Source: Morinoia aosen
Taxonomy: Eukaryota > Arthropoda > Malacostraca > Amphipoda > Talitridae
Reading direction: 5' to 3'
Assembly (NCBI GenBank): GCA_030386875.1
Contig: CM059573.1
Location: 31,475,891-31,539,890, forward strand
Length of the DNA stretch: 64,000 nt
Positions 25,641 to 61,733 of the stretch are shown here, in pieces. The notes under the pieces are model-generated. The model had not been told where the DNA came from, did no database searches, and saw only the letters and a program-made list of their open reading frames with translations. Numbering within the stretch: position 1 is the stretch's first letter; every line of letters begins with the position of its first letter. Both the position numbers and the translations under genes were made by a program.

Positions 25641-26269
25641 AAATTCTTGAAGCGAGATTAATCAAACAGAAAAAGCCATTCATTTACAACCAGAACACCG
25701 GAACTCCTCACATCCTCAAGCTTCTTTAACCGGCTGTACTTCCGAAGACGCCAGCTAGCCCTAGGAGTCCGCCTACTCGGCGCATCTCTATTCTCTAGCT
25801 GATCGTTCACACAGTAACTACCATCCGGTTCGGAAACATATGGCCAATTGCAGCACGGGGTTAGCAAATATCCGATGTTCGACGAAAGGCTGCACAAAAA
25901 ATCATTTTTAAACATGACGCTATGTAGTCTTCCCCAAATTTCGAAATCGAAAGCTTCCGAAGTCCAAAACCATAAAACTAGTCGAGATACAAGTTTGTTG
26001 TCTTCCTTCAGAATCGCTGGCGCTTCTACTACAAGTTATACCGGGTGTTGTGTAATTCGATGCACATATTAAATCAAATACAGGGTGGGGCTAAAGGTAT
26101 GAACGAGTTTTGATGGGCTGCCGCTCGGCCTGTGGGGGAGGTGGAGAAACGGGAGGGGTTTCGTTGTTGCTGCGTGAGAGCAGGGCTGCCACATCTTGGG
26201 AATTTTACCCAGATCTTGGGAATTCGGACATTGTCTAGGGATTTGGGGAATTCGATACAACAAGGCTAA

Positions 26270-26817
26270 AGGCCCCCTCACACGTACAAATATGTTGGCA
26301 GACAATCTGAACTGAATTTGGTATGTCGGTCTCAAGACCCCTCACACGATGGAAACAACACACTGCAAACTTGGAAAAGACTGGCGCACGCTTCAGTAAA
26401 CCAGTAGCAGCCAGGTGAAGAGTACGCACAAGAATAGCGACTCCAGACGGCGAGTTCGTACAATTGATAGGATTGGCTTTAGTTGCAATGAATAAGAAAT
26501 AAAAGAGATCATCAGATGTAAAAGCTCGCTCAAAATGGGCTAAAGAATAGTTCCTAAAAAGTACTGAACATACAAATAAGAAATTGCTTATTGAAGTGCA
26601 TAAGGAGGGAGAGAGGCGAGTACAGTCGTGCACCACACACGAAGGCTGGCGTGACAACGACGTGGTGTCAAGGTTCGCAGCCGATCGCTCCAAAATTATC
26701 AAGCATGGCTCATCTGCCTCATACAGTCAGTGCCAACCTGAAATGAGCGTACAAACGCACGAATTCAGCACCACTTCAGAAAGGTTTGCAGATATATTTG
26801 AGCGTGTGAGGGGGCCT
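26270..26817. mobile_element. Element E: 548-bp MITE with TAA duplication
   Basis: AGGCCCCCTCACACGTACAA continues as ATAT. The inverse right end is ATATATTTGAGCG followed by TGTGAGGGGGCCT. TAA lies outside both ends. It is nested in the left part of the hAT. Further inverted matches extend inward (GTTGGCAGACAATCTG against CAGATATATTTG-like sequence). No coding capacity. Confidence 0.78.
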
Positions 26818-26911
26818 TAAGAATCTAGGGAATTTGGGGTATTTTTACAATATTCTGCATGTAAAAACTGAAATTGCCTAAATAATACTATATGTTTCTA
26901 AATAATAATAA

Positions 26912-26945
26912 TATGTTGAACGCAAATATTAATTTGCGTTCAACA
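26912..26945. repeat. Near-perfect palindrome, 15-bp arms
   Basis: ATGTTGAACGCAAAT is followed by a 4-base loop and ATTTGCGTTCAACAT. It lies in the 5' region of the hAT. Confidence 0.85.
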
Positions 26946-27289
26946 TAAAGGTACAGAAACAATTAAAATTTCTACAATTCGATCTAGAAATTAATCAAAT
27001 TATCAGCACAAAGAGTCTAAGTCAGCTTCGCGAATGCATCATGGTAGAATAATACATATTTGTATGGAATCCGAATGCAGCGCACAGTGGCGCCTTATGG
27101 AGGGCCTGGCTCAGTCACTCATTTGGTGTTGCTGAGGTGCTGGCTCTTATAGTGTGCGCCTTAAGGCCCTATTACACGGGGCAACATTTTGCCTCGACTA
27201 CAGCAACTGAAATGACGCAACTTCTGGGTGCGCTACATGGTAGACGAAACAAGGTAGCTGCAAACCAGTCTTTTATGAAATCGAGTCTC

Positions 27290-27330
27290 ACCCCAGTGAC
27301 GTCAAGGCATCCGACCAATAGCAGCGCTTA
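27290..27330 (+). promoter_or_regulatory. CRE-like and CCAAT boxes inside left end of G
   Basis: GTGACGTCAAGG is followed about 10 bp later by CCAATAGC, about 115 bp upstream of a candidate first exon. The combination suggests a promoter, by inference only. Confidence 0.35.
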
Positions 27331-27443
27331 AATTGCATCTGGCAACATTGCTAACCCGAAATCTGGCATCACTGTTAGCGTTACGCGCACGACAATGTTG
27401 CATTTCTGTTCTAATGAAGTGTTAACGAGTCGAGTGAATCGCA

Positions 27444-27521
27444 ATGTCGGCGCCTCAAGATAAATTTTTAAGAAAGTGTTCCTTTATTTTTTGTCGGAAT
27501 AATTCTAAAAATCTACCCAAG
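27444..27521 (+). CDS. Candidate THAP-type first exon in element G
   Basis: ATG opens a 26-codon stretch that contains KCSFIFCRNNSKNLPK and ends at a GT donor (GTATTT). The C-x4-C-x-N pattern, the final LPK and the exon length closely parallel exon 1 of the P-element transposase at 17738 (CSAYGCNARNDKKN, ending HK at GTAAGC). The rest of a THAP domain would be in a second exon, which I did not find. A possible partner is the exon-like piece at 31665. If real, G originally encoded a THAP transposase of P or Kolobok type. Confidence 0.35.
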
Positions 27522-27672
27522 GTATTTCAAAGGTCTTGTTTCAATTATAAAGAATTGATTTGGTCCAGTGGAAAGGTTTAGTTAAATAATCTCAAGTCGA
27601 AGTTATGTAAGTTACGTTTGCTGGCAGCCATTTCTAAAAGACCGACTTCCGAAGAATCCCCTCTGCATTTAA

Positions 27673-29017
27673 GGGAATCATCCGGGGCCCTTGCTAGATC
27701 CTGTCGATATCAGTCACTTTGCATGTTTTTGTTATAGGAGGAGCCTTAGTTGGTGGACTATTCGTTCCTAAAATTTTATGGCGCTACGACAATAATTCCC
27801 TCCCTCCCGGGGGGGGGGGGGGGGGTGAAGGAATCAAAATATTTCAATTTTCCCGATTTTGACACCATATGAAAAGAAAACAAATGGGAAATGAAAAAAA
27901 ACGAACGTGAGTGTGTTAGAAATGTTTCAAGGATTCTAAAACTGCATTTGTTTTCGTTCTAGCATCAAAACTGAAGGAGGAGTCCCATTTTGAAATATCG
28001 ATATCAATGAAAAGCACCCAAAATTTTTTCAACTTTTTCCAGATTTTGACCCCATATATAAAGAGAACAAATGGGAAATGCAAAAAAGCCAAACGTGGGT
28101 GTGTTAGAAATGTTCCAAGGATTCTAAAACTGCATTTGTTTTTGTTCTAGCATCAAAACTGGAGGAGGAGTCCCATTTTGAAATATCAATATTAGTGAAA
28201 TATCAATACCTAAAAACCAACAAGTCAAATTTTTGCAAAATCTAAGGCCTGAATGAAAAAAATGAATGGAAACAATTGTGTTTCTTTTCAAAGGTTACAT
28301 ATCATAGTCATATTTTATAAGAATCAGACTGAAAAAAGAAAAAAATTATTTTTTTGATAAAAATGGAAAAAATTTTATAATTTTTTTTGATGAAATCACA
28401 ATTCACAGTTTGAATATGAAGTTATGTATGGAAAGTATCGAAATAAAAATTAAAACTGCATTCAATTACATCAATTGTTCATTATATTACACTTCAATAC
28501 AAAATTGTATTTTTTGCTTATACCCAACACTGAATTTTCAACATTCATCCTGGGACTAGTTCTCGAGTTTTGATGCTAGAACAAATCCAAAGACAGTTTT
28601 AGAATCCTTGGAACATTTCTAACAAACGTTCGTTCTGTTTTTTTCAAATTTGAATTCTTTGAAGAAATATATAGCTCTAAACCCAAAAAATTGTTGCTGA
28701 TTTTTGAAATTTCCAAAAATTTGAATAAAATAGAAAAAATTTGAATTTGAAAAAAACTGAATGAGCGTTTGTTAGAAATGTTCCAAGGGTTCTAAAACTG
28801 TCTTTGATTTTGTTCTAGCATCAAAACTGAAGGAGGCGTTCCAATCTGAAATATTAATAAAAATATACAAAAAACACATTTTTCGTCAAAAAAATACTAA
28901 GGCCTAAATCGAAAAAATGACTCATTTTTTTGAAAAAAGGTTTACCTTCACGAAAGACATACAGGGCAATTTTCAAACGAATCGGACGAAAAAAGGTCTC
29001 AAACCCGGATGATCCCC
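27673..29017. mobile_element. TTAA-flanked element, 1.35 kb, with internal repeats
   Basis: GGGAATCATCCGGG at the left and CCCGGATGATCCCC at the right form TIRs with TTAA outside each (27669-27672 and 29018-29021), as in piggyBac or Kolobok. Inside, a box containing GTTAGAAATGTTCCAAGG, TTCTAAAACTG and TTCTAGCATCAAAACTG occurs at about 27915, 28105 and 28775 on the plus strand and at about 28565-28635 on the minus strand. A G-run of about 18 lies at 27808-27826. No coding capacity. Confidence 0.75.
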
Positions 29018-29021
29018 TTAA

Positions 29022-29824
29022 GACGCACATTACATTGGAAAGAGGTGTTGTGCTGTTTTATGATCACAGGAGTTTGGAACTGGAAGGTAAGAAATTGAAT
29101 TTTGAATATTATTCGAAACTAATTTAAAAATAATGGCTTATAACTGATTTTTGCATTCGATGAAGTGACATCTCTTGACCAAATCTTTGCCACCAGATAC
29201 AGTAGTACAGTTCAAATTTGATATGCTAATTCCATTCATAAATGCTGTTGAATTGCGTGAAATTTAACATTTAAAGGAAATGAGTAAATAGAAATAGTAT
29301 GTGCTACAATTAAATGCTGATTAATGACATGCTGTTCATGAGTTTAATTTTGATCTATGCATTATATTGAAATTAGCAAGAAGTAAGCTTGGAACCTACA
29401 ATGCTCAGACATGAAAGCTAGTTTGGACTGTCACATAGTAAAACTTGTTTACTGTATGTTAGATGCAACTTTAGAATAGCTCCTATTTATCCTGTGTAGC
29501 CAATCTTATCTGAAATTTTCAGATTAACTTGTAATAACTTTCTACCTTATAGCTAAATGTCTAGTGTTTACAAGCAAGATGCAAAATCTTGTCTATGGTT
29601 TTCTATTGTAAGTGCTACTTTTTACGGCAATTACCTTCTTGAAACTGACTCTGTTCTAAGCATATTTAGAAATGCACTTTTAAAGGTACCTGACTTCTTC
29701 TAGGCTTACCATTCATCGTGTTCCATTTGCTGCTAAGTAATTTCTTTATATAAGGTGCCAAATTCTTGCTGTTGATCATAGTTTTATTGTGAGAGCTTCA
29801 AAAATCTTATCTGAAGCTACAAAG
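29022..29824. other. No gene recognised
   Basis: AT-rich interior of block G. A short frame at 29025-29125 (ITLERGVVLFYDHRSLELEGK) is of unknown origin. Confidence 0.4.
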
Positions 29825-30507
29825 GGTCAATGTGAAGTTTAATGCAATCACGGGATTTAATAATTATATTCCAAAAAATCACTAAAGGAACTCATTTAAG
29901 AACGTTTTACATGAATGACATTCTGCTCGCTGATGCGTTATTTTCGAATTATTCAACTTTGAAGTTGGCCTTCGCACGCCATAGGAAACGAACGTGCGAA
30001 ACGGAATTTAATTAATGACGGAAGCTAAAAACCCTATTACAAACGTAAAGAGGTTGGGTCGTTAGCGGGAGGCACAGTCCTTTTAGTGAAAATTATCAAT
30101 AAAGCTTATAACCCACCCATTAGGGTGACGACCGCAATCTTGTTTACATCGGCTCCAAGATGGCGGCGCCCATTGTGGTCGCCATCTTGGAGCGCATGTA
30201 AACAAGATTGCGGTCGTCACCCTAATGGGTATGTTAGAAGCTTTATTGATAATTTTCACTAGAAGAACTGTGCCTCCCCCTCACGACCCAACCTCTTTAC
30301 GTTTGTAATAGCTTCCGTTATTAATTAAACTGTTTCACGCTTTCGCTTCCTTTGGCATGAAGGGCAACTTCAAAGTTCAATTATTCAAAAATAACCCGTC
30401 AGCGAGCTGAATGTCATTCTTGTAAAACGTTCCTAACTGGGTTTCTTTAGTGATTCCTGGGATCGCAATTATTATTTTCTGTGATTGCATTAAACTTCAC
30501 ATTGACC
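29825..30507. mobile_element. Foldback element FB8, copy 1 (683 bp, 8-bp TSD)
   Basis: The two arms of about 330 bp are inverted copies, starting GGTCAATGTGAAGTTTAATG and ending with the inverse CATTAAACTTCACATTGACC. CTACAAAG lies outside both ends (29817-29824 and 30508-30515), a perfect 8-bp TSD. The centre of the palindrome is CCAAGATGGCGGCGCCCATT followed by the inverse GTCGCCATCTTGG. No protein is encoded. Confidence 0.92.
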
Positions 30508-31663
30508 CTACAAAGCCATATATAATTTAAAGAAGCAGATTTTTCTGTTTTTGTTTATGGTTCTGTTTATATCTTAGTCTCCTTTTCCTGTTTCTTAGTA
30601 GGAAACCGAAAACATCTGTGCAAAAATGAAATTGAGGACATATCTTCATTTAATTTTTTATGGGTAAATGTTAAGGAGAGGACCATAATCGATTTTCCAC
30701 TTTTCGGTGCCTAAACGTAGTTAATTAGATCTAAATAAACTATTTTTCATATACGCACTTTCCGTCGCGAATGAGTATTTAACAAGTTATAGCGGGAAAT
30801 TACTGACCGCAAATCTAGTGCTTGAAGGGGAAAGAAATTGTTCGGACATGAAGACTACAATGGACTCTCCCTTTTGACGCACTCAAATGATCGAGCGCAT
30901 TCCAGCCATCAAATACAAAAATTAACATACCGCTATAATTCATTAAATACTCATTTGCAACAGAAAGGGCATAGAAGAAAAATTGTTCATTTTGATCTAA
31001 TTAACTATGTTTAGCAGCAAAAATTAAAAAAATCATTATGGTCCTCTCCTTTACAAATACCTTTTTATGTCATATAAAATTGATGCTTGTGTGTTTTAGA
31101 CTTTTTCTTTTGTAGTTTAGATTAGTCGATTTTAGTTGTATTGTTAAATATCATGAACAAATCTACTTATATTATACACAACATTAACTGTTGAAGAAAA
31201 ATTGTGAAAACTAGCTTGAGTGTATTAATTAACTTATTTGGTTGTACCTGACGCTATGTATGTCACACTTTCCGGTCTATTATCCCATTATAGTGTAATT
31301 TTCTCTTTTTCCCCTTTTTTTTCACCAATGATTTTTCTCTGGCTTTTTCCTTCCCTTTTCTCCCAGTGCGACTGGTATTTTTAAAGTTTGTATTACACTC
31401 TAGTGTATCATTGTCTCCATTTCCTTATGTGTGCATTTTAATACTGCTTTATATTCAGTGTTTTCTCTCTGTATAACTGACCCTATTGATTAAATACTCC
31501 CAGCTGCACCTCAATTTATTATATTAACTCTGCCTTTTGTTTTCTCTAACATATTTTAAACTGTACCCTCAGTAATGCAACTGAAATGCATGCTTATTGA
31601 GCCAAAATCTAATTCAGGAACTGTTGATGCGACAAGTTCACTAATATTTATTTTTGCCTTCCA
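30508..31663. other. No gene recognised
   Basis: An imperfect inverted repeat is visible around 30660-30790 and 30935-31075 (GGACCATAATCGATTTTCC against TTATGGTCCTCTCC, and AGTTAATTAGATC against GATCTAATTAACT). It may be another old foldback of about 410 bp. No coding signal. Confidence 0.45.
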
Positions 31664-31664
31664 G

Positions 31665-31972
31665 GTACATGAAGAAAGTGAAATAATTCCACCCATCATT
31701 GAAATGGATGAAGGGGCGCAAAAGGCTGCTGTGGTATTCAACGGACCCACCGATATTGAAGGAATTTTGGCTTCAGTGAAAGTGGAAGATGCTGCCACTT
31801 ATATCTCCGGTTACATTGCCATGAATACAGACTTGTATCAGCAACAACTGAAAAAAAAAACATCTTTGTCTGACTATACTATATGTTCCATTCTTAGTGT
31901 AAAATATTTCAATTTCCTTCTGTTTGGGTCTTTTAAAAGTATCTCCAATCTGATGATCAGTGCAAGAGACTG
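31665..31972 (+). CDS. Exon-like piece resembling P/THAP transposase C-terminus
   Basis: After the acceptor TTGCCTTCCAG an open stretch of about 100 codons contains IEGILASVKVEDAATYISGYI, which resembles the NVVGYIAGFIVRK motif near the end of P-type transposases. A poly-A run at 31850-31860 and the stop at 31971 end it. It could be the 3' exon of a THAP-type transposase belonging to G or of a separate remnant. The match is short. Confidence 0.3.
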
Positions 31973-32839
31973 AAATATTGCAGTAAATCTTTCTTAAATG
32001 CTATTCCTTGTTGTGAGAGGGTTTTCCTCTATCTTTTCAATACAATTAGTCACTCACCAGGCTTCTGCAAAAGTGTTAGTGAATTATTTCATGAGAACTG
32101 ACCTAAATCTCTCACCTGCTGTTCTTAAATAATAATGTACCTAATTTAGTTTTTCTTCAGATGTAGAACATTACAGTCAGTCAGAGCTTACAATAGACCT
32201 CTGCAGAGTACATGTTTTACAGGTAAACTTGATAAAATGGTGCACAAGGGATTCCACTGCACATATCTCCTGACCCCTTGTCAACATGATGCTCTAAAGT
32301 GAAATATGAAAAATTGTGTCAGATCAAATTATTCAGTTAATTTTAAATGTTTTTTTGAGCTGCTACTTGAATGCACTTGTGTGTGCAAAATCATTTTATG
32401 CCATGTGTCCCGGTATTTCATTTGAAACAAGTTAGGGTGAATTACTGTTTCCTTCTTTAAAACCTATAACTTCATGTTGCTGCTAGAACTTCATACATTC
32501 CGATTAAATATTAGAAAGCTTAATTTTAGTCTTTGTGTCACTCACTCTACTCAGCTGTTAGATAAACTAAAAGCAAAATATGATAGAGATGGGGTTGTGA
32601 GGTGGTCTATGGTGTCGAACTAGCGATAAACTTTTTTTATTGGTCTGTTCATAATTTAAGGCTGTGAACTATTATGTGGTACAATGTTGTCCATTGCATA
32701 ACACAATAACGGACGGTAGTGCAAGGTTAATTTGTTGGTTCGGCCGAGTGCATTGTGAGATTGAAGCGTTTTAAACTAGCATTCCTTGGTATTTAAGTGC
32801 CATACCAATTTGTAATCCTTGTTTTTTTTCTCGTGAATG

Positions 32840-33203
32840 CCCCTCAGGGGGATACAATTATTGTATCTATGGGAACTAGCGCTCCCAGGGGGACAATGTG
32901 AGGGCCCGAGCTAAAGGTTAGGTAGGCTTTCTTTTGTTAAAATAGGATAGGTTTTTGTTGTGTTACGGACCATCTTTTTTCGGTTCACTGCTGTCCTGTT
33001 TTTCACCGCCTACCACTTTCTTCTTCAACTTTTTCTTGTTTCATGATCTTCTTTCTTAGCTTTCTGTTTCTGTGCCCTTTCTGCATAGATTCCACGTTCC
33101 CTTAACTCCATACTAAATGGTGCCTTCTTCCTTCCTCTCTTCGATACGCTCTATTTTTGCAGCGGTTAGGGAGGCTTAAACTAACTTATAATCTAATCTA
33201 ATC
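32840..33203 (+). mobile_element. SINE-A copy 1, full length
   Basis: Starts CCCCTCAGGGGGATACAATT, contains GTATCTATGGGAACTAGCGC and GAGGGCCCGAGCTAAAGG, and ends in (TAATC)n. TTCTCGTGAATG at 32828-32839 is repeated at 33204-33215, a 12-bp TSD typical of LINE-mobilised retroposons. There is no open frame. Confidence 0.85.
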
Positions 33204-34199
33204 TTCTCGTGAATGGAACTCGGCAGAAAAAGTTACTTGTAACTTACTCGTGGAAACCTTTACAATCCTATGATGATTTCAATGTTTTGGTTTCAAAATG
33301 AATTCTGTGAAAAGCTTTAGACTGGCTTTGAAAATACTCTCGTAGCTTGAGTTATGGTCACCTCCCCGGTTTTGACATTCTGAAGTTTATGTTAGAATAG
33401 ACTTCCCAGCAGCCTGTACTGAATTTATGTTCTCTTTGAAAAGTTACCTGTAGCACAATAATGTTTTGTTATTGATCAATGCTCTTCTCTTCTGAACGTC
33501 CCTCTGGTTTTACATCTGCTTATTGATAATCGTACGATTGTTTGTGAAGAATATGATACGGTTATGAACAATTAATTTCGAGCATCATTCCCATAGTTTG
33601 TATAAAATAGGTCATAGGCTTCCGAATTGCAGGTAGTTAGAAGAATTGGCATACAAAGAGTAATTTTATTTCTAACTGATCATTCTATCGTTTGTCTTTA
33701 TAGTATATAATTTTTTTTTTCCTTTTAGAATTAAAAATGTTCATTCTACTTTTGTATTTCTTTACTTACTGGTGCGCAGAGCACTGATACTGATGTTTGA
33801 AGATGCCTTAATGTATTGAGAGTGCTTCCATTTTTGCGCTCTGTGATGTTTTCTAAGTCATTATTTACTGCTAGTTCTTTCGTAGATTTGAATTCAGTTT
33901 TATGTTGTGTCTTGTGTGTACATTTTAGAACTTATTAGCCGGAAAATGTTGAAACGAGCCTTGAGCGATGGTGTTCTAATTATTGTTTTTGATAGGAAAA
34001 TAGTTTATTTTATTCATTATCGTCCGAAAGTTACGTTGTGTCTAGATTTTAGAAGCGAAATACATTTTTAGGTGGTGAAAATATTTATTCATTTATGCAG
34101 GGATGAGTTGTTGGCTTTTATTTTGCTCCCCACTCTTATAAATTTAGTGATGTAATGTATCGAGCTGAGAGTTTGCTAATCCTTTTTTGGTTGCAATTA

Positions 34200-34450
34200 A
34201 AAAATTGCAAGGACCATCGTTTTGTGGCGCTCTGCTATGCTGTTTTTACATCACCTATGGCTTTCTTCTTCAGCTCTGATTTTTTTTCATAACCTTTATC
34301 TACAACTTTCTGTTTCTATGCGTTGCGTATCTAGTGTGTAAACGCACCTTGTGTATTAATTCCTCATTGACTGTATGTACTCCGTACTTAGAGGTGTGTC
34401 TTCCTCTCTTTGAAAAGATATCTTGTGGTAAGAGAGGCTGATTCCAAGTC
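34200..34450 (+). mobile_element. SINE-A, old diverged copy
   Basis: Shares the order GGACCATC, CTATGGCTTTCTTCTTCA, CTTTCTGTTTCTATGCG, CCTCTCTTTG and AGAGAGGCT with better copies. The 5' part is missing. Confidence 0.6.
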
Positions 34451-34708
34451 ATACCCTAAGCTAATCTGCAGAACTTGTTAGTATTTACATTGAAAATTTG
34501 CTGTTCTAAGGGAGAACATGCTAAGTCCTGCAAGTGACTTACTTAAGCCATTCATATGTTGAAATAGAATGCGTTTTTTATTCCGTTGCTGACCACCTTT
34601 CGCTTCACTGCTGTCATTTGTATTTATTTACAATTTAAATATTTATTATAAAAATGAAAGAGCAAGACAAGCTACTTGAATCATTCAAGGTATATATTCG
34701 AATAAAAC

Positions 34709-34751
34709 CTAATTTCAAACGTTTCGGCCACAGGCCATCATCAGTGATTAG
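34709..34751 (-). ncRNA. Candidate hammerhead ribozyme of the Penelope element
   Basis: Minus-strand sequence contains ACTGATGA, a GGCC-TGT-GGCC hairpin (stem II) and CGAAAC, the conserved hammerhead core. CTAAT upstream can pair with ATTAG downstream as stem I, and AAAC with GTTT as a minimal stem III. Hammerhead motifs are known in Penelope-like elements. Self-cleavage is not shown by sequence alone. Confidence 0.6.
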
Positions 34752-34854
34752 AATTCTGAAAAGTACAAAGTAAAAAGTAAGAATAGACAAAATGACAAAT
34801 CAAATCGAAGAATGACCATTCTAAAAACAAGCTATCAAATTGCGTTAATTGTGA

Positions 34855-35748
34855 TTATCTATTTACAATGGCTAAAGGAAAAGAACTCAGAGTGTTATTT
34901 AAAGCCGGCCTACGTTTAAAAATGTACAAGGACTCTAAAATGCGCATATCTGTATATAACTGGGGTTTTGCTAAGATTGAAAATTGATTAATGGAAATTG
35001 CACTATCGCACTCGTCCGAATGCTCTCGAACGGCGGAAAAAGGGGGTTTTGCCAAAATTGAGCCTGTTCTAAAGCTCCTACCAGAATGCTCGCTGACTCG
35101 AGTGCGAAGACTACGGGATGTGCATCCAACGTACTCTGATGCACAGCGTGCACAACTAAACTTATAAACAAGAGTAGCTTGCATTCCGGCAGGAAGCATA
35201 TCTTTATAATTAAAAAACGACGATATTCTAAAATTGTTTACCAGTATTATTTTAAAATTCACATCAGAAAAATATTTCGAAAACACACCAGCCAATTCTT
35301 TCTTTAACTTCTCTGACTGCGCACCAAAGTAAGGAAGCGATACATATGCAGTCCGATGGGCGGGGTCGATGTTGCCAACTTCAGATCCGTTGTTATAGAA
35401 TCTATCGAGGAATAAACGTATTTTTGAATCTATACAACTTACGGAGTAGCCATTGTTTTTGAAAAAAGATCTCTAAAAATGAAATTCTTGATGTTAGAAA
35501 GCGAAATTAGTACATATATTAAAAGCGCGGGATATCAACGTTCTGGCACTATTGATTTTAAAAGACCACGGACAAAAGCTGTAAAAACTTAAGCCTAGTC
35601 CTGAAAAACTCTTTTTTCTATAAACGGTGCTCTCAAATTTATTTGATTTATGAATTAGGCAGTCTAAAAATGAAAGTTTTTGATCTTGTTCTATTTCCAT
35701 GATAAATTTTATGTTTTCATGTTTTTTATTCAAATAATTCAAGAACAA
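34855..35748 (-). pseudogene. Penelope-like RT with GIY-YIG endonuclease, broken
   Basis: The protein would copy its RNA and nick the target through the GIY-YIG nuclease. From 35748 the frame reads FLNYLNKKHENIKFIMEIEQ then LSFLDCLIHK and ESTVYRKKSFSGLGL, the distal palm/thumb part of Penelope reverse transcriptases. Frames shift between 35490 and 35295. The last open part (35295-34855) contains LVYKFSCARCASEYVGCTSR and LRTRVSEH, the GIY-YIG core with its Arg and following His, then a run ending near 34858. The catalytic palm is missing because of 5' truncation. Confidence 0.85.
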
Positions 35749-35948
35749 TTGGGCGTGAGATGATTCACGAAAGAGCAGGAACGTATCATCTGTGTAACGT
35801 CTATATTTATAGACGTCTATCTAACGTCTATAAATATTTATTATTTTATGTACAGAAAAATGTTGTGGAATAACTTCGGAGAGATATTAAATGCGGTAGC
35901 TTTTTTAGGGAAACTCACCAGAGAATGAACAAAATAATGGACTTTGAT

Positions 35949-36250
35949 TCCTCTCAGGGGGATACAACCATTGTATCTATGGGAATTAGCGCTCCCAGGG
36001 GAAAAATGTGAGGGCCCGAGCTGAGAGTTAGGTAGGCCTTCTTTTTATTGAAATAAAATGTTTTTTGTTATGATAAGGACCAACTTTTTTCGGTTCACTA
36101 CTGTCCTATTTTTCAGCACCTCTGACTTTCTTCTTCAACTTTTATCTTATTTCATGAACTTCTTTCCCATCTTACTGTTTCTATGCCCTTTCTGCATAGA
36201 TTCCTCATTTTCTTATCTCCATACTAAATGGTGCCTTCCTCCTTCTGACT
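35949..36250 (+). mobile_element. SINE-A copy 2, 3' end lost
   Basis: Starts CCTCTCAGGGGGATACAACC and matches other copies to TGGTGCCTTCCTCCTTC, after which the (TAATC)n tail is absent. Confidence 0.75.
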
Positions 36251-36284
36251 TTGAGTTCTAATTAGGAAATTACCTTTTATATTG

Positions 36285-36910: not shown

Positions 36911-36939
36911 CCACTAATTATCAAACATAATGTTGTATA

Positions 36940-39405: not shown

Positions 39406-39436
39406 CTCCTTTAAGTCTACCAAGGTGCGCTACCAC

Positions 39437-45008: not shown

Positions 45009-45016
45009 ACTTCCGG

Positions 45017-50522: not shown

Positions 50523-50804
50523 TTAGTGATTGGAGATCAATTATTTCAGATATCGTAACCCTAGTAAGATGTATGTTCCCCCAACAAATAACTAAGATTT
50601 CAATCAAGACAAAGATCATCTGGAAAGGTTAGAATATTTATCCCTCTTCAGAAAACCATTTCAATAAAGTTTCGTTACTGAGGTTTTTTGCTCGTGTCTT
50701 TACGAGTGGTGAATTGATCGTTTTCTTCATTCAAACTTAGCTCAGGGTGTAGCTTCTGTTTTCAAGCTTTTAGAAAAATTTCAATTGTGGGACTGAACTG
50801 TCTT

Positions 50805-51285: not shown

Positions 51286-51300
51286 TCTTGCCCACCTCAG

Positions 51301-51324
51301 GACGCAGTGCACCACCACCAAGGT
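51301..51324 (+). CDS. PFDN3: PFDN3-like last exon, part before LINE insertion
   Basis: After acceptor CCCACCTCAG the frame reads TQCTTTKV and runs into the LINE at 51325. Translation would continue through LINE sequence to a TGA at 51578-51580, replacing the end of helix 2 with about 84 foreign residues. Confidence 0.85.
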
Positions 51325-52811
51325 TGTTGTTGTTTTGCCCCGACGGCCGCTCGAAGGGGTCCGCTGCGGCCAGGGCCGTCCCAGACCGGGCCCGGCCCGA
51401 GGCGAAGAGGGGTGTGGTTATATGGGCCTCTGGAAGACGCCCGCGTCGTGCAGAAACCTCACGACGTCCGCGGGGCGAGTCCAGAGGTGCTCCAGTGCAT
51501 GTATCTGGTGTGTGTATCGGTGTGCGTGTAGGGTGGGACAGTGTAGGAGGACATGCGGAAGATCGCCCACGTTGGCATGACACCAGACGCAGCTGTCGTC
51601 CTCCGCAAGTCCTATTCTGTGCATGTATGAGGGGAGTGAAGTGTGGTGCCCGCACCGCAGCCGCGCCAGGTGGACTCGATCCTGCCGGGGGAGGGATCGC
51701 TCCGTCGAGGGGACGGGGGGGGGGGGTCTCACTCCGAGGAGGGAGTTAGGGGGTAGGGCAGCGAGGGCGCGTGAGGTGAACTGTGTGTGTATGTGTGTAC
51801 GTAGTGGGGGGTCAGGGGGGCAGGGAGGGAGGGAGTCGTATAGTGTTTTGAGGTGTGTGGCCGGGGTGGTGTGTAATGTTCGTTGGGTTGGCCGGGGTTG
51901 TTGCTTGTAGTGTAGCGGGTGGGCAGGGTCTTGTGTGGAGGTGTAGAAGTTTGTCCCTAGCGTGTTCATGTGGTCAAGGAGGGGGAGGACAAGGGCTTCT
52001 TCGTGTAGGTGTGCTATAGGGGTCGACCGTGTACAGCCCGTGGCAATGCGCAACGCTGTGTTTTGTGTGGACTGTAGTTTCTGTAAGTGAGTGCGAGCAG
52101 TGTCTGCGTACCAAGATGTGTGTGCGTAAGTGAGGATGGGTCTGATGAACTGTTTGTATACTGTTGTTATGTCTTCCTTGGAGTGGCCGTATGTAGTATG
52201 TGTTAGTGCTCGGAGGACGTTCAGCCTAGTGTTGCATTTAGTGTTGATATTGTTAGTGTGTGGGCTGAACGTAAAACCTCTGTCATATGTAACTCCAAGG
52301 ATTTTGGGTGTGTTTGTGTAGGGGATGGGGGTGTTGTTTAATGTGACGTGGGGATGGATGTTGTATTCTCTATTATAAGGTGTGATGAGTGTGAGTGAGG
52401 ATTTGTTTGCGGAGACCTTGAGTCTGTTTCTAGCCAGTTCTCTATTATGTAGATGTAATCTTGTAGTTGAGTGGCGGCGGTCTCGTGTTTAGGGTGTAGG
52501 GAGAAGATGGTTAGGTCGTCTGCGTATGTGAGGAGGTGTGTTTGTGGGTGTGTAGGGGCCGGTATGTCGTGGAGGAATAAGTTGAATAGTGTAGGTGAGA
52601 GCACGGAGCCCTGCGGTACTCCGTTGGTGAAGTGTTTTGTTATGGAGGATTTGCCGTTGTATGTTGTGTAGCCATGGCGGCCTGAAAGAAAATTGGCGAG
52701 CCATTTCTGAAGGTTATGGTGGATGTGTGTGTTGAGTATTTTATTAATAAGTAAGTGACGTGGAACTGTGTCGAAGGCCTTGCTTATGTCAATGGCAGCT
52801 AACAGTGTGGT
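51325..52811 (-). mobile_element. Non-LTR retrotransposon in PFDN3 last exon, 15-bp TSD
   Basis: CACCACCACCAAGGT occurs at 51310-51324 and 52812-52826, so the target exon is duplicated exactly. The element lies on the minus strand. Its 3' tail is (CAA)n at 51325-51336 and its 5' end is truncated inside the RT domain (AAIDISKAFDTVPRH begins at the very border). Sharp borders and an undiverged TSD indicate a young insertion. Confidence 0.93.
51418..52800 (-). pseudogene. Jockey-like RT C-terminal region
   Basis: This is the reverse transcriptase of the inserted LINE. From 52800 on the minus strand it reads DISKAFDTVPRHLLINKI (first catalytic Asp), NGVPQGSVLSPTLFNLFLHD and LLTYADDLTIFS (YADD with two catalytic Asp). 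A frame break lies near 52400-52050. The C-terminal part (52053-51418) has HLARLRCGHHTSLPSYMHRI and the Cys/His motif SCVWC then DLPHVLLHCP, usual for Jockey-group ORF2 proteins, and ends with a stop at 51418. The N-terminal endonuclease and RT fingers are missing through 5' truncation. Confidence 0.88.
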
Positions 52812-52826
52812 CACCACCACCAAGGT

Positions 52827-52908
52827 CACCAAAGCCCGCGTGTACAACTGGGACGTGAGGCGCCGCAGAGCCGAGGCTGGCAAGACGGCTCAGCAAAGGA
52901 AAAACTAA
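52827..52908 (+). CDS. PFDN3: PFDN3-like last exon, part after LINE
   Basis: Continues the frame as TKARVYNWDVRRRRAEAG to a TAA at 52906-52908. VYNWDV is the hallmark near the C-terminus of prefoldin subunit 3. Confidence 0.9.
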
Positions 52909-52959
52909 CCCCATGGTAGCCTTAAATATATAGCTTCTACTTCACTGCCTCCTGCCTAA

Positions 52960-54450
52960 AAGGCCTTTCACACGATCAGTTTTTTCGTCAGTCAACACTG
53001 ACACTCCAGAGTGTGGTCAAAACACTAGCGTTCACACGTACGTTCGCGTGACTGAAGTGGCGCGTCACTGGCAAGCTTGGCAGTGGTTCACTATGCATAG
53101 TCGAGAAAGATTCGTCGTAGTCAAAGCAAGCATACTCATCGGCTTTGCGGTCATAGAGAAGAAAAAACACCATATATAGATAGTGGGTAAAAGAATGGCT
53201 AGCTAAACATCCAGAAAATGGCAGTTATAACCGGATTTGTAGTATGTTAGGACTAAATATCCAAATTTCGCTCACTAATTATTTGTCGCATTCGTTCCTT
53301 TTCTCAGCATTTGTAAAATTTAGTCACACCAAATCTAACAAATACTGCAACTACCACAAATGTAATAATCTACTTCATAATAACTTCAAGTGCAGGTAAT
53401 ATTTTCCGCTTGTTCTATACAGTTTTGCATGTACCAGCGTGTAATAGTACAGCTCGTAAATTGAATTTTGTTCTTGAAGAACTATGTTCGGTCATTTCCT
53501 AGCGACACAGTGACTAGGATATAGAAATAACAGTTGAAATCTAGCGCACATTCATTAGATAGAATTCACGCGCAAATCTGGCATCCGCAAGCAAATATTA
53601 TAAAATATAATAAACCTCTAAAATTACTCCGTGATAATATCTAATAATGCATGTGAATGTGACAGCGGTACGGGTAAACTAATAAATGTTTAAATTCATT
53701 TCAGGAAACATTTTCATGCTGAAATTAAATGTTAAGGAGAATTCATGGAAAAAGTTTTTTATTTTATTTGAAAATGACGGACAAATTACTGAAATCGCAC
53801 TTCGGTTAAATATTTAATATTTTTATTCTAATTAAAAAAAATAATATACCTTTGCAGTATTTCCTGAGTGAATATTAAATAAGATTAGAAATCATTTGTA
53901 AATGGCGCTGACACTACAACAGGACGAATGCATTATGATATGCATGTAATAAAATAAACTATTGTTCTCCGCACCTTTGAATCCAGGTGATATCCTCTGC
54001 TAAATAACAGATTTTTGGAAGCAAAGGCTCTAAAATCTTTCCTAAACTATTTTTGAAGCGTATTAATTTTTTCCTTCAACCCATTCTCATGTAAACTAAT
54101 ATTGTGTTGATTCATTGCTTCAATAACATATTTGAGCTACTTGCTTCTTATATCTCTGCTCTTGTATTCGTTGCTTTGCACTTTCCACAAAGCCGGCTGT
54201 TGACGAAAATAGCTAATTAATGATTTAGACCAGGTTGAGACCATTTAACACGGGAGAGCGATCGCAACCATCCTTACTAGACGCCGGGCGGGCGAAAACT
54301 GACACGCAAATAGAAGCAAAGCAGCAGTCAAACCCGACAGTGGCGAGTGCCGAGTAGAGAGCAAAAGAGAGCACGCATGCCCAAATATGGTGTTGCGGAC
54401 CGTGAGTGTCAGTGTTAACTGACGAAAAAACTGATCGTGTGAAAGCCCCT
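52960..54450. mobile_element. Element F: 1.49-kb TIR element with TAA duplication
   Basis: AAGGCCTTTCACACGATCAG continues TTTTTTCGTCAGT and is mirrored by ACTGACGAAAAAACTGATCG then TGTGAAAGCCCCT. TAA flanks both sides (52957-52959 and 54451-54453). It lies 50 bp after the prefoldin stop codon, so it falls in the former 3' untranslated region. The inside is AT-rich and non-coding. Confidence 0.82.
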
Positions 54451-54474
54451 TAAGGCTATGTTGTTGGCATATCC

Positions 54475-55655
54475 GAGAATGTAACCCTGATCGAGCTTCA
54501 GTTGGCAGTCGGCAGCTTCGAGGGACCACAGACGCTCTGCTCCGCTTACAGAACCACCTGGTAGCTAACCTCGCCGAGCGTCGCCGAACCATGTGTCTTT
54601 TCTTTGATATGCATAAAGCCTATGACACCGTGTGGAGATATGGAATACTTAAGACACTACATGAGTATGGACTCCGTGGTAACATGGCCCTGCATATTCA
54701 AGAATTTCTTGGTGAAAGAACTTTCCGCGTTAAGGTCGGCGGCACCCTCTCTTCCTTGCAGTTGCAGTGTGAAGGTTTACCGCAGGGCAGTGTTATGAGC
54801 TGCACCCTGTTTAGTGTTGCCTTAAATGGTATCACCTCCACCTTGCCTCCCGGAACGGTGGCCTCCTTATATGTGGACGACTTTATGGTGTACTCTTCAT
54901 CAACATATCTTCCAGCTCTGACGCGAAGAATGCAATTAGCCATCAATAACGCTCATAAGTGGGCTCAGGAACATGGCTTCAACTTTTCACCGGAAAAAAC
55001 AGTTGGACTTTACTTCCAGGGCCGTGGCTGTAGTGATCCCCCACAGCTCACACTGCAGGGAAGACAAGTGAATTTTTCACACAGCGCCAAGTTTCTGGGG
55101 GTGACACTTGACGACAGGCTCTCTTGGAAGCCCTACCTAGCCACCCTCAAGGCTGACTGCGTCAGAGGGCTGAACTTGCTAAAAAGCCTGGCCGGCCTGA
55201 CGTGGGGGGCTGACAGAATGACCCTACTGAGACTATATCGTACTCTTATTAGAAGCAAGATAGACTACGGCTGCATAGTGTATCAATATGCCAAGGCGAC
55301 TTCACTTTCGAAGCTGGACCCTGTGCATCATGCTGCTATCAGAATCTGCACTGGCGCGTTTAGGTCGTCCCCTTCCAGCAGCTTGTGTGTGGAGAGCGGT
55401 GAACCTCCTTTACGGCACCGCCGTGTGCAGCTGACCCTTCAGTACTTGGCGCGATTGGAACAAGTCCCCTTGTCTCCTGCATGGACCAGCGTGCATGCGC
55501 CACTAGGCCGACATCTGCCTTTCCCTTACTTTTTGCTCAGATCACGATCGTGGCTATCGCGTCTTTGCATGTTTAATAGTTGCTGTGACTTGGGTTACGA
55601 TGTTCGTGGCAGTGAGACTTCGAAATTTGAGACGTGGAGACAACCTGAATTGTGA
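54475..55655 (+). pseudogene. Non-LTR reverse transcriptase fragment, nearly open
   Basis: The reading frame is open from about 54495. It starts in the RT fingers (SRQLRGTTDALLRLQNHLV) and continues LFFDMHKAYDTVWRYGIL (first Asp), CEGLPQGSVMSCTLFSVAL and VASLYVDDFMVYSS, where YVDD holds the remaining catalytic Asp pair. SAKFLGVTLDDRLSWKPYL and LYRTLIRSKIDYGCIVY follow. It belongs to the I/Jockey/R1-type LINEs. The endonuclease is lost and the frame ends at 55655. Open length of about 385 codons suggests a recent insertion. No TSD was fixed. Confidence 0.85.
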
Positions 55656-55769
55656 GACCTTCGGCGCGACATAGTGCAGGCACTGAAGCGCTAGCAAATT
55701 GATGTTATTACTAAAACTAAACTACTCGAGCTTCAGTTTTGTTTCTTGTTGGCCGTCATTGGACGACTA

Positions 55770-56134
55770 CCCCTCAGGGGGATACAACTATTGTATCTAT
55801 GGGAATTAGCGCTCCTAGGGGGACTATGTAAGGGCCTGAGCCCTCAGCTGAAGGTTAGGTAGGCTTTCTTTTTGTTAAAATAGAATAGGTTTTTGTTTTG
55901 TTACGGACCATCTTTTTTCGGTTCACTGCTGTTCTGTTGTTCAGCACCTACTACTTTCTTCTTCAACTATTTCTTGTTTCATGATCTTCTTTCTTAGCTT
56001 TCTGTTTCTGTGCCTTTTCTGCATAGATTCCGCGTTTCCTTAACTCCATACTAAATGGTGCCTTCTTCCTTCCTCTCTTAGATAGCCTTTGTTGCGGATA
56101 GGGAGGCTTAAACTAACTAATAATCTAATCTAAT
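55770..56134 (+). mobile_element. SINE-A copy 7, full length, 13-bp TSD
   Basis: Starts CCCCTCAGGGGGATACAACT and ends (TAATC)n. CATTGGACGACTA is found at 55757-55769 and 56135-56147. The cleanest copy for defining the family. Confidence 0.9.
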
Positions 56135-56147
56135 CATTGGACGACTA

Positions 56148-57019
56148 ATTTGCTGTGGCGGTTGCAATGCGTGAGTCTTTTTTTTTTGTAGTACCACGTG
56201 TTAGACACAAATGTGTCAAGATGGGTAGATTGCAAGTTTGATTTAAAGTCTTAGGTTAGCTAATACTTGACCTCAAGAATTATAGAACTGTGAGAAATTG
56301 CGTTGAGATTTCCTCCTTTAGTATCGGTTGTGCGCAGCGTTCGTTTTCCTCCATCACAGTTGAATGGAACGACCTCATTGCTAGCTTACCGTAGTACATA
56401 TTTGACGGAGATGTTTGACGGCATTTCTCGTTCCTCGTGTGACGAATGTTTAGGCAAGGCTTCATTAAATTGTGCAAGAAGATTGGGTGAGGATGTTAAA
56501 TTTTACACCCTAACTAATAGTCATGTCCGAGAACCACATGCTCCCTGTTGAGTTCATTCTCACTTCAGATATATGAGCATTAAGATCATCATTGTCACAG
56601 GACATTAGGGCAGTAAAACAGGTACGTTTTATCTTCGTCTAATGTCCTGTATCAGGATGGAGCTTCATTCTTTCACATTTAAAACTTATTTATTTGCTCA
56701 TAAGAAACCAAAACACGCTCTTGGCTTAAATTCTCAGGTTTCTGACGTGCAAATTATTGAATGGTGAATACTAATGTGAATTTACTGAAAAATAGTGGCG
56801 TAGCATGAAATTCTTTTATATATAGTGATCATAATGGGTATTTTACATTTCAAGCGTATGGGTATAGCTGAAGTCTTATAATTTGTTATGTCCAACAGGG
56901 AAGGAAATGAGATTTGAAATTTCTAAGCGGTCACAGGAGGAAACATAAGTGTGGCCAACCTGTTGTCTGATGGGGGACTTACGAGGAGACTACTACTCGT
57001 ATTCATAAAGTATGACTAA
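56148..57019. other. No gene recognised
   Basis: A small inverted repeat CATTAGGGCAG.. / GACGAAGATAAAACG.. with GACATTAG and CTAATGTC near 56600-56645 is the only structure. Several chance frames. Confidence 0.4.
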
Positions 57020-57365
57020 AGTATTGTATCTATGGGAATTAGCGCTCTCAGGGGAAAAATGTGAGGGCCCGAGCTGTGAGTTAGGGAGGCCTTCTTTTTG
57101 TTGAAATGGAATGTTTTTTGTTATGTCAAGGACCACCTATTTTCGGTTCACTACTGTCCTGTTTTTCAGCACCTCTGACTTTCTTCTTCAACTTTTATCT
57201 TCTTTCATGAACTTCTTTCTCATCTTACTGTTTCTATGCCCTTTCTGCATAGATTCCTCATTCTCTTATCTCCATACTAAATGGTGCCTTCCTCCTTCCT
57301 CTCTTCGATACGCTCTATTTTTGTAGCGGTTAGGGAGGCTTAAACTAACTTATAATCTAATCTAA
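57020..57365 (+). mobile_element. SINE-A copy 8, 5' truncated
   Basis: Begins AGTATTGTATCTATGGGAAT and runs to ATAATCTAATCTAATC. Confidence 0.8.
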
Positions 57366-58181
57366 TCTGTGTAACGAATGGGGGTGAAGTTCTGGAGAAT
57401 TGTTGTGGCCCGACGAAAGGAGGGCATACTTTATGTGTTGAAGTCGGACATGAGTTTTTTTGTTTTGGGGAAAAGTGTATTGTATTAAGTGGTTTCGCAC
57501 TTGACTGAGTATGATGGAATATGCGAGCAATAACATAATTGAAGTAATTTGAATAGATAGCGGAGAGAAAGATGGAAGGCACTGATGACTTCAGCGTACC
57601 ACCTTACAACAGCAGAGCAACTTTGGTAGCAATGCCCAAAGCGACGACTAAAGATCTATAACCGAAGTTGTCGGTAACTGAGTTTATTGTTATTATTATT
57701 GTTATTATTATAATTATTATCATTCTCTTATCTCCATACTAAATGGTGCCTTCCTCCTTCCTCTCTTCGATACGCTCTATTTTTGTAGCGGTTAGGGAGG
57801 CTTAAACTAACTTATAATCTAATCTAATCTGTGTAACGAATGGGGGTGAAGTTCTGGAGAATTGTTGTGGCCCGACGAAAGGAGGGCATACTTTATGTGT
57901 TGAAGTCGGACATGAGTTTTTTTGTTTTGGGGAAAAGTGTATTGTATTAAGTGGTTTCGCACTTGACTGAGTATGATGGAATATGCGAGCAATAACATAA
58001 TTGAAGTAATTTGAATAGATAGCGGAGAGAAAGATGGAAGGCACTGATGACTTCAGCGTACCACCTTACAACAGCAGAGCAACTTTGGTAGCAATGCCCA
58101 AAGCGACGACTAAAGATCTATAACCGAAGTTGTCGGTAACTGAGTTTATTGTTATTATTATTGTTATTATTATAATTAACC
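57258..58181 (+). repeat. 462-bp tandem duplication
   Basis: 57258-57719 and 57720-58181 are the same unit, apparently without differences over most of the length. Each contains the 3' 100 bp of SINE-A, then GTGTAACGAATGGGGGTGAA through ACTGAGTTTATTG and a (TTA)n run. The identity implies a very recent event or an assembly artefact. Confidence 0.9.
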
Positions 58182-59163
58182 GGAGCAAGTTGCATATTAT
58201 AGGATGTGTGCCGTATATGTATATGTATATTAAATAATTCAAGTGCGTAGTGTTCAATATTTAATTGCTACAATAATGTATTCATCGAATAAAAATGGAT
58301 GTAAGGCTACTTTTGCCATGTAGTAAAACTAGGCCAAATGCATGTTTTACTGTATTGAGGGATTTTCACGGGGAAAAGTGTAGCTGCTGGAATGACTACA
58401 GCAATACTGCCAATATTCCTGTGGTTACTCACAGCAGCTACACTTTTAGTTCAACGATGCTCGTTATTCAAATTTTGAACTATTAACACGTACATCATGG
58501 ATACAGAGCAATTGGAAAATTAACTAATCTTGAAAACACATTTTTTTATAACGCAATTTGATGTAGCGGTGATTATTCAAAAATCATCTGAACAAATCGA
58601 TAGGTAAGAGTAAAAGAGCACAGCAGAATATGGAAAAGGTGCAAGAGAAAGATTTGTACTTCGGGAGCCTATTCTTATAATTTGAGTTTATACGAGGCCT
58701 CCAATATACGTGTATATATATAGTCTAAAATAAATGTCCATTAAAGATGATGGACATTGTAAAATAACTAATCCTGCTTCCTATGTACATCGTTCAACAA
58801 GTATTCTAAAAGAATAGAAGACTTTCTTGAAGCGGAAAGCATTGTTTGCATGAGTAATTTTATCCTGTGTTTTATTTACGTTGAAAAACGATGAACTCAG
58901 TGTTTCGTCCTGAAATATAAAGTAACATTATGAGGACTTTCATTTGATTTATCCTTTTAACACTCTAGAAGAAAAATTAGAATTTGAGAATTACAATGAG
59001 TATGCAAGTCGCAGACGGAGCTTTGTATTGATAAATATGAAACTTTTGCCCAGTGTGCACACTAATTTCAATTATTACGTGGCTATTAAGCATTGCATAC
59101 GAGATTATCAAAGTTTTTCAGTAACATAGTTTCCATATTATTCAAAAAATTTTCAATACGTAT
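58182..59163. other. No gene recognised
   Basis: AT-rich. A short inverted pair AAAAGTGTAGCTGCTG / CAGCAGCTACACTTTT occurs at 58374-58389 and 58432-58447. No domain found. Confidence 0.45.
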
Positions 59164-59496
59164 GTGCGGAAATCCGGCAGTTCCTGCCATGGTGCAATGA
59201 TACGTACGGCAGCCAGAGCATCGCTGCCGCGAGTGACGTGTGAATCACGTGGTATGGGGTCGGTGACGTATCAGCTCAAACGTCTCCTATTGGCTGGCTT
59301 GTCTAACGGTTTCGAGCAGCTGTCCCCTTTGAAGTGGACTTACCTGTCTTCTGTATACCGTGTCTGTCGCTCTGAGGTGCACGAGGTTTTTGAACAAGCG
59401 CGAAAACCAAAACTCGCTCAGCAACTGCAGTCCGTTGCTCTCAGAAGCATCCGTCGCTGCTTTTTGGAGCAATTGTTGCCCCGTGTAATAGGGCCT
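59164..59496 (-). promoter_or_regulatory. Right end of element G with CCAAT and CRE-like boxes
   Basis: Read inward from the right TIR the sequence has AGCCAATAGG and TACGTCACCGACC. The left end of G has the same two box types at 27290-27330. Beyond the first 22 bp the two ends are not alike. Confidence 0.4.
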
Positions 59497-59566
59497 TAAA
59501 GTAATAGCGCTACACGCAGCGGTGTTGCTTTGTCCTTATTGCCTTATCAGCTTCTAGTTTAACACA

Positions 59567-59827
59567 ATGGAATCACCTAAAAAGTGGAACAATATTTTTT
59601 TTTTTAAATTCAAAGACTGGCTACAGAAAGATAAAGATGGAAACCGTCTCGGTTGTAAATGTTGCATAATCATGATCGAAAGTGCGAACAAGTCTACCCT
59701 ACAGGAACACAAGGAATCCGAGAAGCATAGGAAAACTTATGAACTTCCCAAATCGAAAGTTGAAAAAAAAAAAAATTCAAAAAGAAAGCGCCTAACGATG
59801 ATGATCAAGTGTCCCCTCGCTTGTTGA
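59567..59827 (+). pseudogene. hAT protein N-terminus with BED finger
   Basis: ATGGAATCACCTAAAAAG opens an 86-codon frame with FKDWLQKDKDG, LGCKCC and LQEHKESEKHRK, a C2H2 BED-type zinc finger as found at the start of many hAT transposases. A basic run follows (KVEKKKNSKRKR). The catalytic domain is absent before the right terminus at 60389. It begins 70 bp to the right of element G and belongs to the hAT whose left terminus is at 26181. Confidence 0.75.
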
Positions 59828-59910
59828 TGAAGCTCAGTTAAATAAGATAGAAGACGAGTGAAGAAGTTTTCATCTAATTGCAGCTGACCTATCGATAAGG
59901 AATGTACAAT

Positions 59911-59932
59911 TCCCCCCCCCCCCCCCCCCCCC
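59911..59932 (+). repeat. C homopolymer run
   Basis: About 21 consecutive C. Length is prone to sequencing error. Confidence 0.85.
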
Positions 59933-60417
59933 GGTATTGGAAATCATTAGGGGAAATTAAAGATGACTTGGGCGACCCTAATTTTGGTATCTTTCATATT
60001 TTATGACTTACCTCACTTGCTACGCTTTCATCTGCATCTGTTGAAAAAGTATTTCCTCAACTTTATTACCTGTATAAAAAAATTAACAAATCCTCAAAAC
60101 CAGAAACTGCAGCTTCCTTGCCAAGCAAAAATTCGCAAGAAATAATGCAAAATGTCCTCCTTGGGATCGACTAAAAAGTTTAAAAACTGATCAAGAATTA
60201 GGAATCAAAGTCTCTTGGCTTTCACGCTGACATTAATGACGAAAATGCGAACTAAACCTAACATGTATTGAAGATAAGCATAAATTTCATATTTATATCT
60301 TTTACTAATATCTGGGGATTTATTTTACGATCTGGGGAAATTTCAGGGGTCAGTCTGGGGATTTTGGAAAAAGTTGACTGGCAGCCCTGCGTGTGAGTCT
60401 AGTTTTCAGTAGCAGCC

Positions 60418-60747
60418 ATGGTATGGACGGGAGAGCATCGCGGGTTTGCTGTTGTTACGTTTTTCGAAAATCGCCGTTCTGTGATCTCGGTGAGGAGTGA
60501 CGTGGAGTGGCCTGCGCGCTCACCAGATTTGAGCATTTGTGACTTTTTCCTGTGGGGGTACATAAAGGAAAAGGTTTTTAAACATCGTCCACATACCGTG
60601 GAAGAACTTAAGGACAGAATCAGCGAGGAACTTGCGGCAATACCCATCGAAATGTGCGGAAAAGCGGTTCAAAACTTCAGAACTCGTTTTCAAGAGTGCA
60701 TCGCGGCTGACGGCCAGCACCTACGGGATATCATCGTTAAAACTTAA
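60418..60747 (+). pseudogene. mariner-like transposase with internal deletion
   Basis: A 109-codon open frame joins an N-terminal piece (MVWTGEHRGFAVVTFFENRR) directly to the C-terminal catalytic end (WPARSPDLSICDFFLWGYIK, where the Asp after SPDLS is in the third catalytic position). The rest resembles the usual tail (AVQNFRTRFQECIAADG). About 200 residues in the middle are gone, so it cannot be active. The start lies 28 bp after the hAT flank, which agrees with the mariner left end at 26081. Confidence 0.85.
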
Positions 60748-60865
60748 GATAAAAAACTAGATTTTGTACTGCAATAAACAATAAATAAATAAATACTGCA
60801 AGTTGAATGGTTCTCCTTTCACATTCCTTTATAACCGGTTCATACCTTTAGCCCCACCCGTTATA

Positions 60866-61430
60866 AAGGGTGCGCCAGAGAAACTTACTTATATGAAAGG
60901 TCAATAAAAGCAAAAGTACTGCAGTTATTGTTTTATTGTCTTTTATATTTGAGAATACAATATCCCAATTTTGTTTTACACTGTTTTGAAAATAACATCG
61001 GCTAAATGGCGACCCCCATTGCGCATACACTGATTAAGTCGATTTTTGAAGTGCGTGTCCACTCTTTGCAGCATATCAATCGGTATGTTGGCAATGGCAT
61101 CGCGAATGTTGTTTTTGAGGTGAGCTATTGTCCGTGGTCGATCGACATAAACCAGCGATTTCAAATAACCCCATAAAAAGAAATTGCGTGGAGCCAAATC
61201 TCAAAGTTTGAACGGTGATGGGATTCCATATGATGGATAGTTTACTTCAAAAATCGACTTAATCAGTGTATGCGCAATGGGGATCGCCATTTAGCCGATG
61301 TCATTTTCAAAACAGTGTAAAACAAAATTGGGATATTGTATTCTCAAATAAAAAAGACAATAAAACAATAACTGCAGTACTTTTGCTTTTATTGACCTTT
61401 CAAATAAGTAAGTTTCTCTGGCGCACCCTG
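60866..61430. mobile_element. Foldback made of two mariner right ends
   Basis: The outer 210 bp are inverted copies: AAGGGTGCGCCAGAGAAACT on the left and AGTTTCTCTGGCGCACCCTG on the right, with TA outside. Both arms encode the same transposase C-terminus (NQCMRNGG or NQCMRNGD, then RHLADVIFKTV), the left on the minus strand and the right on the plus strand. The left arm extends further (FFLWGYLKSLVYVDRPRT). Confidence 0.88.
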
Positions 61431-61733
61431 TAATTAAAATCCAAACATAAAACCATTTTCAGGAGTGGCAAAAACCGCTAAACTCCTTCGTTTTTGAGAA
61501 ATGATGCCCCGAAATAATTTTGGATTCCAAGAGGAATAGGCTTACCATACAGCCAAAGAGTAAAATCTAACTTCTTGGGCATGCTGTTTGCGCTCGCTTT
61601 AGGCTATTCCTACGGGAATCTGAAATTATTTTAGGTCATCATTTATCGAAAAGGGTTTTTGTCACTCGTGAAAATCATTTTGTTTTGCATATGGTTAAAA
61701 TTTGTGCATCAAATTACACGACACCCTGTAAAA

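Follow-up and report, generated by a model that had tools for sequence, protein, structure and literature searches.

We analysed a 64,000-nt stretch of the Morinoia aosen genome (C18:31475891-31539890, hereafter the window), in which the halves of four transposable elements, designated X, mariner, hAT1 and G, enclose one another concentrically around a block of some 32 kb. A sequence-only reading of this DNA had taken the block for one insertion bounded by the terminal inverted repeats (TIRs) of G, perhaps a giant transposon carrying host exons. All eight ends of X, mariner, hAT1 and G are indeed present, within 1 to 2 bases of where that reading had placed them. The locus as a whole is almost certainly an ordinary nested cluster of cut-and-paste transposons and not a giant mobile element. 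Its components, given with their target site duplications (TSDs) in window positions, are the following.

X, 26041..61728: element resembling a miniature inverted-repeat transposable element (MITE), about 340 bp, TSD TA, in pieces 26041-26080 and 61433-61728; the TA that M2 duplicated lies at 61431-61432.
M2, 60866..61430: foldback-type element, TSD TA, within X and adjoining mariner.
Mariner-type element, 26081..60861, plus strand: 564 bp without its insert, in pieces 26081-26180 and 60398-60861.
hAT1, 26181..60389, plus strand: TIR CAGGGCTGCCA, TSD CGTGAGAG/CGTGTGAG, in pieces 26181-26269, 26821-27164 and 59500-60389.
MITE H, 26270..26817: in the left half of hAT1, TIR AGGCCCCCTCACACG at both ends, TSD TAA (26267-26269 and 26818-26820).
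G, 27165..59495: 1,750 bp, flanked by TTAA, in pieces 27165-27235, 39433-39436, 41506-43055 and 59371-59495.
E, 27236-39424: P-like element, TIR CATGGTAGAC, TSD GTGCGCTA (27228-27235 and 39425-39432), holding later insertions.
hAT2, 39437-41497: 2,061 bp, TIR CAGTGTTTCC/CAGGGTTTCC, TSD GCTACCAC (39429-39436 and 41498-41505).
F, 43056-59362: P-like element, TIR CACGGTAYAC, TSD TCTGTCGC (43048-43055 and 59363-59370).

From one G end to the other (27165-59495) the span measures 32,331 bp. When E, hAT2 and F are removed, each with one TSD copy, 32,331 - 12,197 - 2,069 - 16,315 leaves 1,750 bp, and the four remaining pieces of G join in order and orientation, colinear by alignment with G copies elsewhere, six of which measured 1,707, 1,751, 1,767, 1,769, 1,771 and 1,779 bp. 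What had been read as a single 32-kb insertion is thus a G of 1.75 kb holding three insertions (E, hAT2 and F). One might suspect a giant (32 kb) or composite transposon, arriving with the whole block at one time, from the ends of G, which begins with GGCCC at 27165, finishes with GGGCC at 59495 and has 26 bases, TTAA included, identical at both ends. Against such a delivery stand the 1.7-1.8 kb of the six measured copies and the composition of the extra 30.6 kb, where every large piece has TIRs and an 8-bp TSD of its own and has further copies elsewhere that share its ends. Since three internal TSDs go together with unbroken 1.7-kb copies of G, we regard a 32-kb giant transposon as refuted and accord delivery of the 32.3-kb block by G, or by paired G ends, next to no probability. 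The other option that had been offered, namely that G grew to this size afterwards, proved right insofar as the growth consisted of other elements inserting into G.

The genome searched comprises 1.99 Gb in 29 contigs. Each whole-genome search scored 40 candidates (for the G interior, 40 of 8,329), and the fractions given below count main matches at scored places outside the window. The 8,329 first-look candidates for its interior mark G as a very common element, and 38 of the 39 other scored places were covered from position 27 or earlier to position 1480 or later. The joined G aligned in one piece (about 1.6 kb, 91.7-93.4% identity) with six other G loci and in two pieces with L038. Of 11 G loci outside the window, 9 gave an alignment that ran unbroken across the F insertion point; of 7 G left-end stretches fetched, 6 aligned across the points where E and hAT2 inserted, L042 among them with 11 gap positions. 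With TTAA as the target duplication of piggyBac, the flanks of G read TTAA/TTAA in the window, L041 and L042, TAAA/TCAA in L043 and L044, and TAAA/TTAA in L047. A 3-bp target duplication is PIF/Harbinger-like; among the five readable G copies it fits only L047, L045 and L046 being unreadable on the left.

For coding content, we compared with Pfam (cut-off 0.001) the 106 stop-to-stop frames of at least 60 aa in 27165-59495 in which no single residue reached 30%, a scan blind to short exons and to those belonging to no Pfam family. Two of the 106 frames matched RVT_1 and nothing else reached 0.001, which leaves the proposed cargo of host exons without support. No piggyBac domain was found in this set, and G codes for nothing recognised.

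The left boundary of E is visible in a search with the left end of G, in which all 39 other main matches begin at 27231-27236 and not at the G end (one secondary match begins later), indicating that a separate family, E, starts there. In the window the TSD of E is perfect (8/8). We fetched ten E copies from the 39 other places matching its left end and compared their right ends and internal insertions through pieces of >90% identity and >60 bases only. The right end lay within 20 kb in seven of the ten, which are 8,491-13,882 bp long and in five cases 8.5-10.3 kb; their TSDs match at 8/8 in five, at 7/8 in one and not at all in one. hAT2, with CAG-type end repeats and a perfect TSD (8/8), begins 12 bases beyond the end of E, and 30 of 39 other places matched it over its full length. 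The target of hAT2, GCTACCAC, shares bases with the right-hand copy of the duplication that E made, so hAT2 probably inserted after E.

The TSD of F is likewise perfect (8/8). When 57900-59500 served as query, matches at 38 of the 39 other places stopped at query position 1463-1492 and one at 1388, and none of the 39 extended into G. To obtain F lengths, 38 left matches were paired with 39 right matches, setting aside the window itself, secondary matches and the left match C24:35423658 (which begins at 213). Eight of the 15 resulting copies measure 11,656-11,884 bp (about 11.8 kb), the other seven 11,197, 12,928, 17,580, 22,602, 26,190, 32,607 and 33,120 bp; the five of 17.6-33.1 kb presumably hold further insertions. 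An 11,836-bp copy at C17 has GTATCACA on both sides. A scan of the window for TIR pairs (10 bases, at most 2 mismatches, perfect 8-bp TSDs) found 29, compared with 6, 6, 12, 10 and 15 in five base shuffles. Given these shuffle counts, a TIR pair with an 8-bp TSD says little by itself; for E, hAT2 and F, genomic copies lend further support.

Turning to the outer layers, X is bounded by TA on both sides (26041 and 61728), and its joined halves were unbroken in all 39 other scored places, at 76-80% identity. The long inverted arms of M2 (60864-61052 and 61244-61432) are 97% identical. For the joined pieces of mariner, whose right end lies at about 60861, 32 of 39 other places matched from position 58 or earlier through the junction at 100, and the remaining seven begin at position 86 or later; copies also occur at L050 and L051. 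We take this element to be a mariner from its TIR style and the appearance of its C-terminal frame, a frame that gave no transposase match in Pfam. Both the mariner and the hAT frame begin to the right of the inserted blocks, as the sequence-only reading had it, but the insertion does not interrupt the mariner frame, since the insert lies upstream of its ATG at 60418 and copies without the insert keep the same order. The hAT1 frame, as far as readable, also begins after the insert (ATG at 59567), and the insert likely lies in front of this frame rather than splitting it. An 89-aa hAT1 frame (59558-59824) has its best Pfam match, a weak one at 0.06, to a zinc finger model. Pieces of other MITE H copies occur in fetched loci at 79-93% identity.

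The end repeats and TSDs are seen directly, and copies elsewhere are seen in the case of six elements, namely X, mariner, G, E, hAT2 and F. The succession from X through mariner and hAT to G, as earlier proposed, is borne out by the TSDs; unbroken copies elsewhere add support at the X, mariner and G layers. X would have taken in mariner and the foldback element M2, mariner would have taken in hAT1, hAT1 would have received MITE H and the 1.75-kb G, and G in turn E, hAT2 and F, with E and F later acquiring further small elements. Each step would be a standard transposase-made insertion with target duplication; the transposases responsible, like the order among E, hAT2 and F, we infer. Identity to the best-scoring relatives is 76-80% for X, 90-94% for G, 95-98% for F and 97-98% for E (first 265 bases), an apparent age gradient that agrees in the main with older layers outside and younger ones inside.

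Several observations weigh against this succession. The age order is not strict, with mariner relatives of up to 96% identity and hAT2 relatives of 85-99%. One E copy, E3, has both ends and no TSD. L045 shows no G left end in the fetched stretch, and the first bases of G are altered in L046. An assembly error is possible, though such an error would not make matching TSDs. The hAT1 layer is based on its CAG-type end repeats, its 8-bp TSD and the layers that enclose it; as had been pointed out, the octamers CGTGAGAG and CGTGTGAG differ at one base (7/8 identical). Moreover, when hAT1 was compared with the loci fetched and with the remainder of the window, nothing but the outermost 40-73 bases of its left end recurred, at 2 loci; its right half and the joined part had no match. 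The mismatched TSD and the lack of a hAT1 copy among the fetched loci would fit two hAT ends, or two G ends, that came from different insertions and were joined by rearrangement or misassembly. We consider this extremely improbable: the four G pieces follow the order and orientation of G copies, and the outer X and mariner layers also rejoin properly.

A further objection comes from the two of 11 G loci whose alignment breaks at the F point; L036 diverges there, and L031 has an 86% relative of F. In L031, F-like sequence follows the end of G at the same base as in the window (86% over 1,262 aligned columns, the end of G included), and a second place, C2:63902156-63902343, matches at 86% over query 1-170. 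F could accordingly have entered an older G copy first, with a G+F composite then moving together. Such joint movement appears unlikely, as the F of the window shares 95-98% identity with the 39 best F copies but only 86% with that of L031, which points to an older F relative in L031. In addition, the target preferences of P-type elements (PMC4168063) could produce hits on the same site in like G copies. An F relative sits at the same G base in L031 and probably also at C2:63902156, and we read the two places as repeated hits on a preferred site rather than as co-movement of G and F. The 1.2-kb match of L031 to the right end of the window was also considered as G sequence and rejected; all but about 134 bases of it are F.

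The nesting of ordinary transposons is an already known kind of arrangement. Nested clusters of transposable elements likewise show concentric halves, a TSD per layer and, on the whole, older elements outside and younger ones inside, and nothing essential differs in the window. The depth of the nest, some five layers of DNA transposons, strikes us as rather high, a matter of judgement and not of measurement. Like the giant eukaryotic transposons, Teratorn and others (PMC6431247), the locus has terminal repeats that match and a TTAA at either end, here separated by about 32 kb; its ends, however, belong to a 1.75-kb element, and neither a 32-kb mobile unit nor cargo was found. One candidate giant transposon is thereby struck off, and a nest of small elements can evidently mimic one: a pair of matching ends 32 kb from each other tells little before internal TSDs and the copy length of the family have been checked.

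The two large insertions in G deserve attention in their own right, as does a P element in the same window.

E and F, 27236-39424 and 43056-59362: multicopy families (loci L013 and L048-L049) of 9-12 kb, with P-like ends and no recognised transposase.
P element, 17570-22158: perfect 14-bp end repeats CATGAAGGTATAAA, TSD CCTCCAAC, with Pfam-matching frames.

CAYGGTA end repeats together with 8-bp TSDs link E and F to the P element of the window and to the P-element superfamily, which includes the large Galileo copies (PMC4168063) and the P elements of Anopheles (PMC1562414). The identity of the window P element rests on its longer perfect repeat (14 bases) and on its frames, which match Tnp_P_element, TNP-like_RNaseH_N/C and THAP9_C. 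Judged by ends and TSDs, the filing of E and F as P-like is supported. In one E copy, 28 sense-strand frames of at least 50 aa gave no Pfam match at 0.1, and comparison of the window P proteins with E3 and with the E and F of the window gave one match, with an E-value of 0.94. F frames, scanned within the window set only (at least 60 aa, E-value 0.001), showed no transposase. E (8.5-10.3 kb) and F (about 11.8 kb), both without recognised transposase, are longer than the autonomous Anopheles P elements of 4,178-7,545 bp (PMC1562414); a 9,021-bp Galileo copy without transposase has previously been described (PMC4168063). E and F may be related, unusually large (9-12 kb) non-coding P-like families that move whole, F carrying along a fragment of reverse transcriptase, and that are mobilised in trans by a P transposase of the genome, a tentative reading that we would put slightly short of an even chance. 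Such families would bear on the maximum length of a mobile DNA transposon.

Within E and F lie further small insertions.

MITE in E, 29825..30507: 683 bp, TSD CTACAAAG; the same family lies in F at 44335-45008, TSD ACTTCCGG.
Insertion in E, 34645..35830, minus strand: absent from E3 and E10, with a 205-aa open frame.
3.3-kb piece in F, 52546..55863: present in the window F, absent from the single fully read F copy.

The 205-aa frame of the insertion at 34645..35830 has no Pfam match and resembles a Penelope-type GIY-YIG end. Two other insertions in E (about 27674-29017 and 37097-38105) are flanked by TTAA, have ends GGGRAYCA/TGRTCCCC and are possibly members of one TTAA-type family. The 3.3-kb piece of F holds one reverse transcriptase frame (54435-55655, plus strand) and part of another (52338-52889, minus strand); the fully read F copy, too, carries part of a reverse transcriptase frame.

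A unit of roughly 350 bp, presumably a short interspersed nuclear element, recurs in E and F (32840-33203, 36402-36760, 47072-47394, 55770-56135 and 57019-57368), with short duplications flanking it at two of these places. Internal direct repeats of 300 bp had been considered as a structure of a giant element; this was rejected, since they are copies of this same unit of roughly 350 bp. Also in F, 57258-57557 and 57720-58019 are 100% identical over 300 bp, the copies lying 462 bp apart, which reflects either tandem duplication in the recent past or an artefact of assembly. Finally, 14614-15668 contains overlapping frames, the first of which matches HTH_32 and DDE_3 weakly, below the Pfam cut-offs; together they are probably a decayed Tc1/mariner-type transposase.

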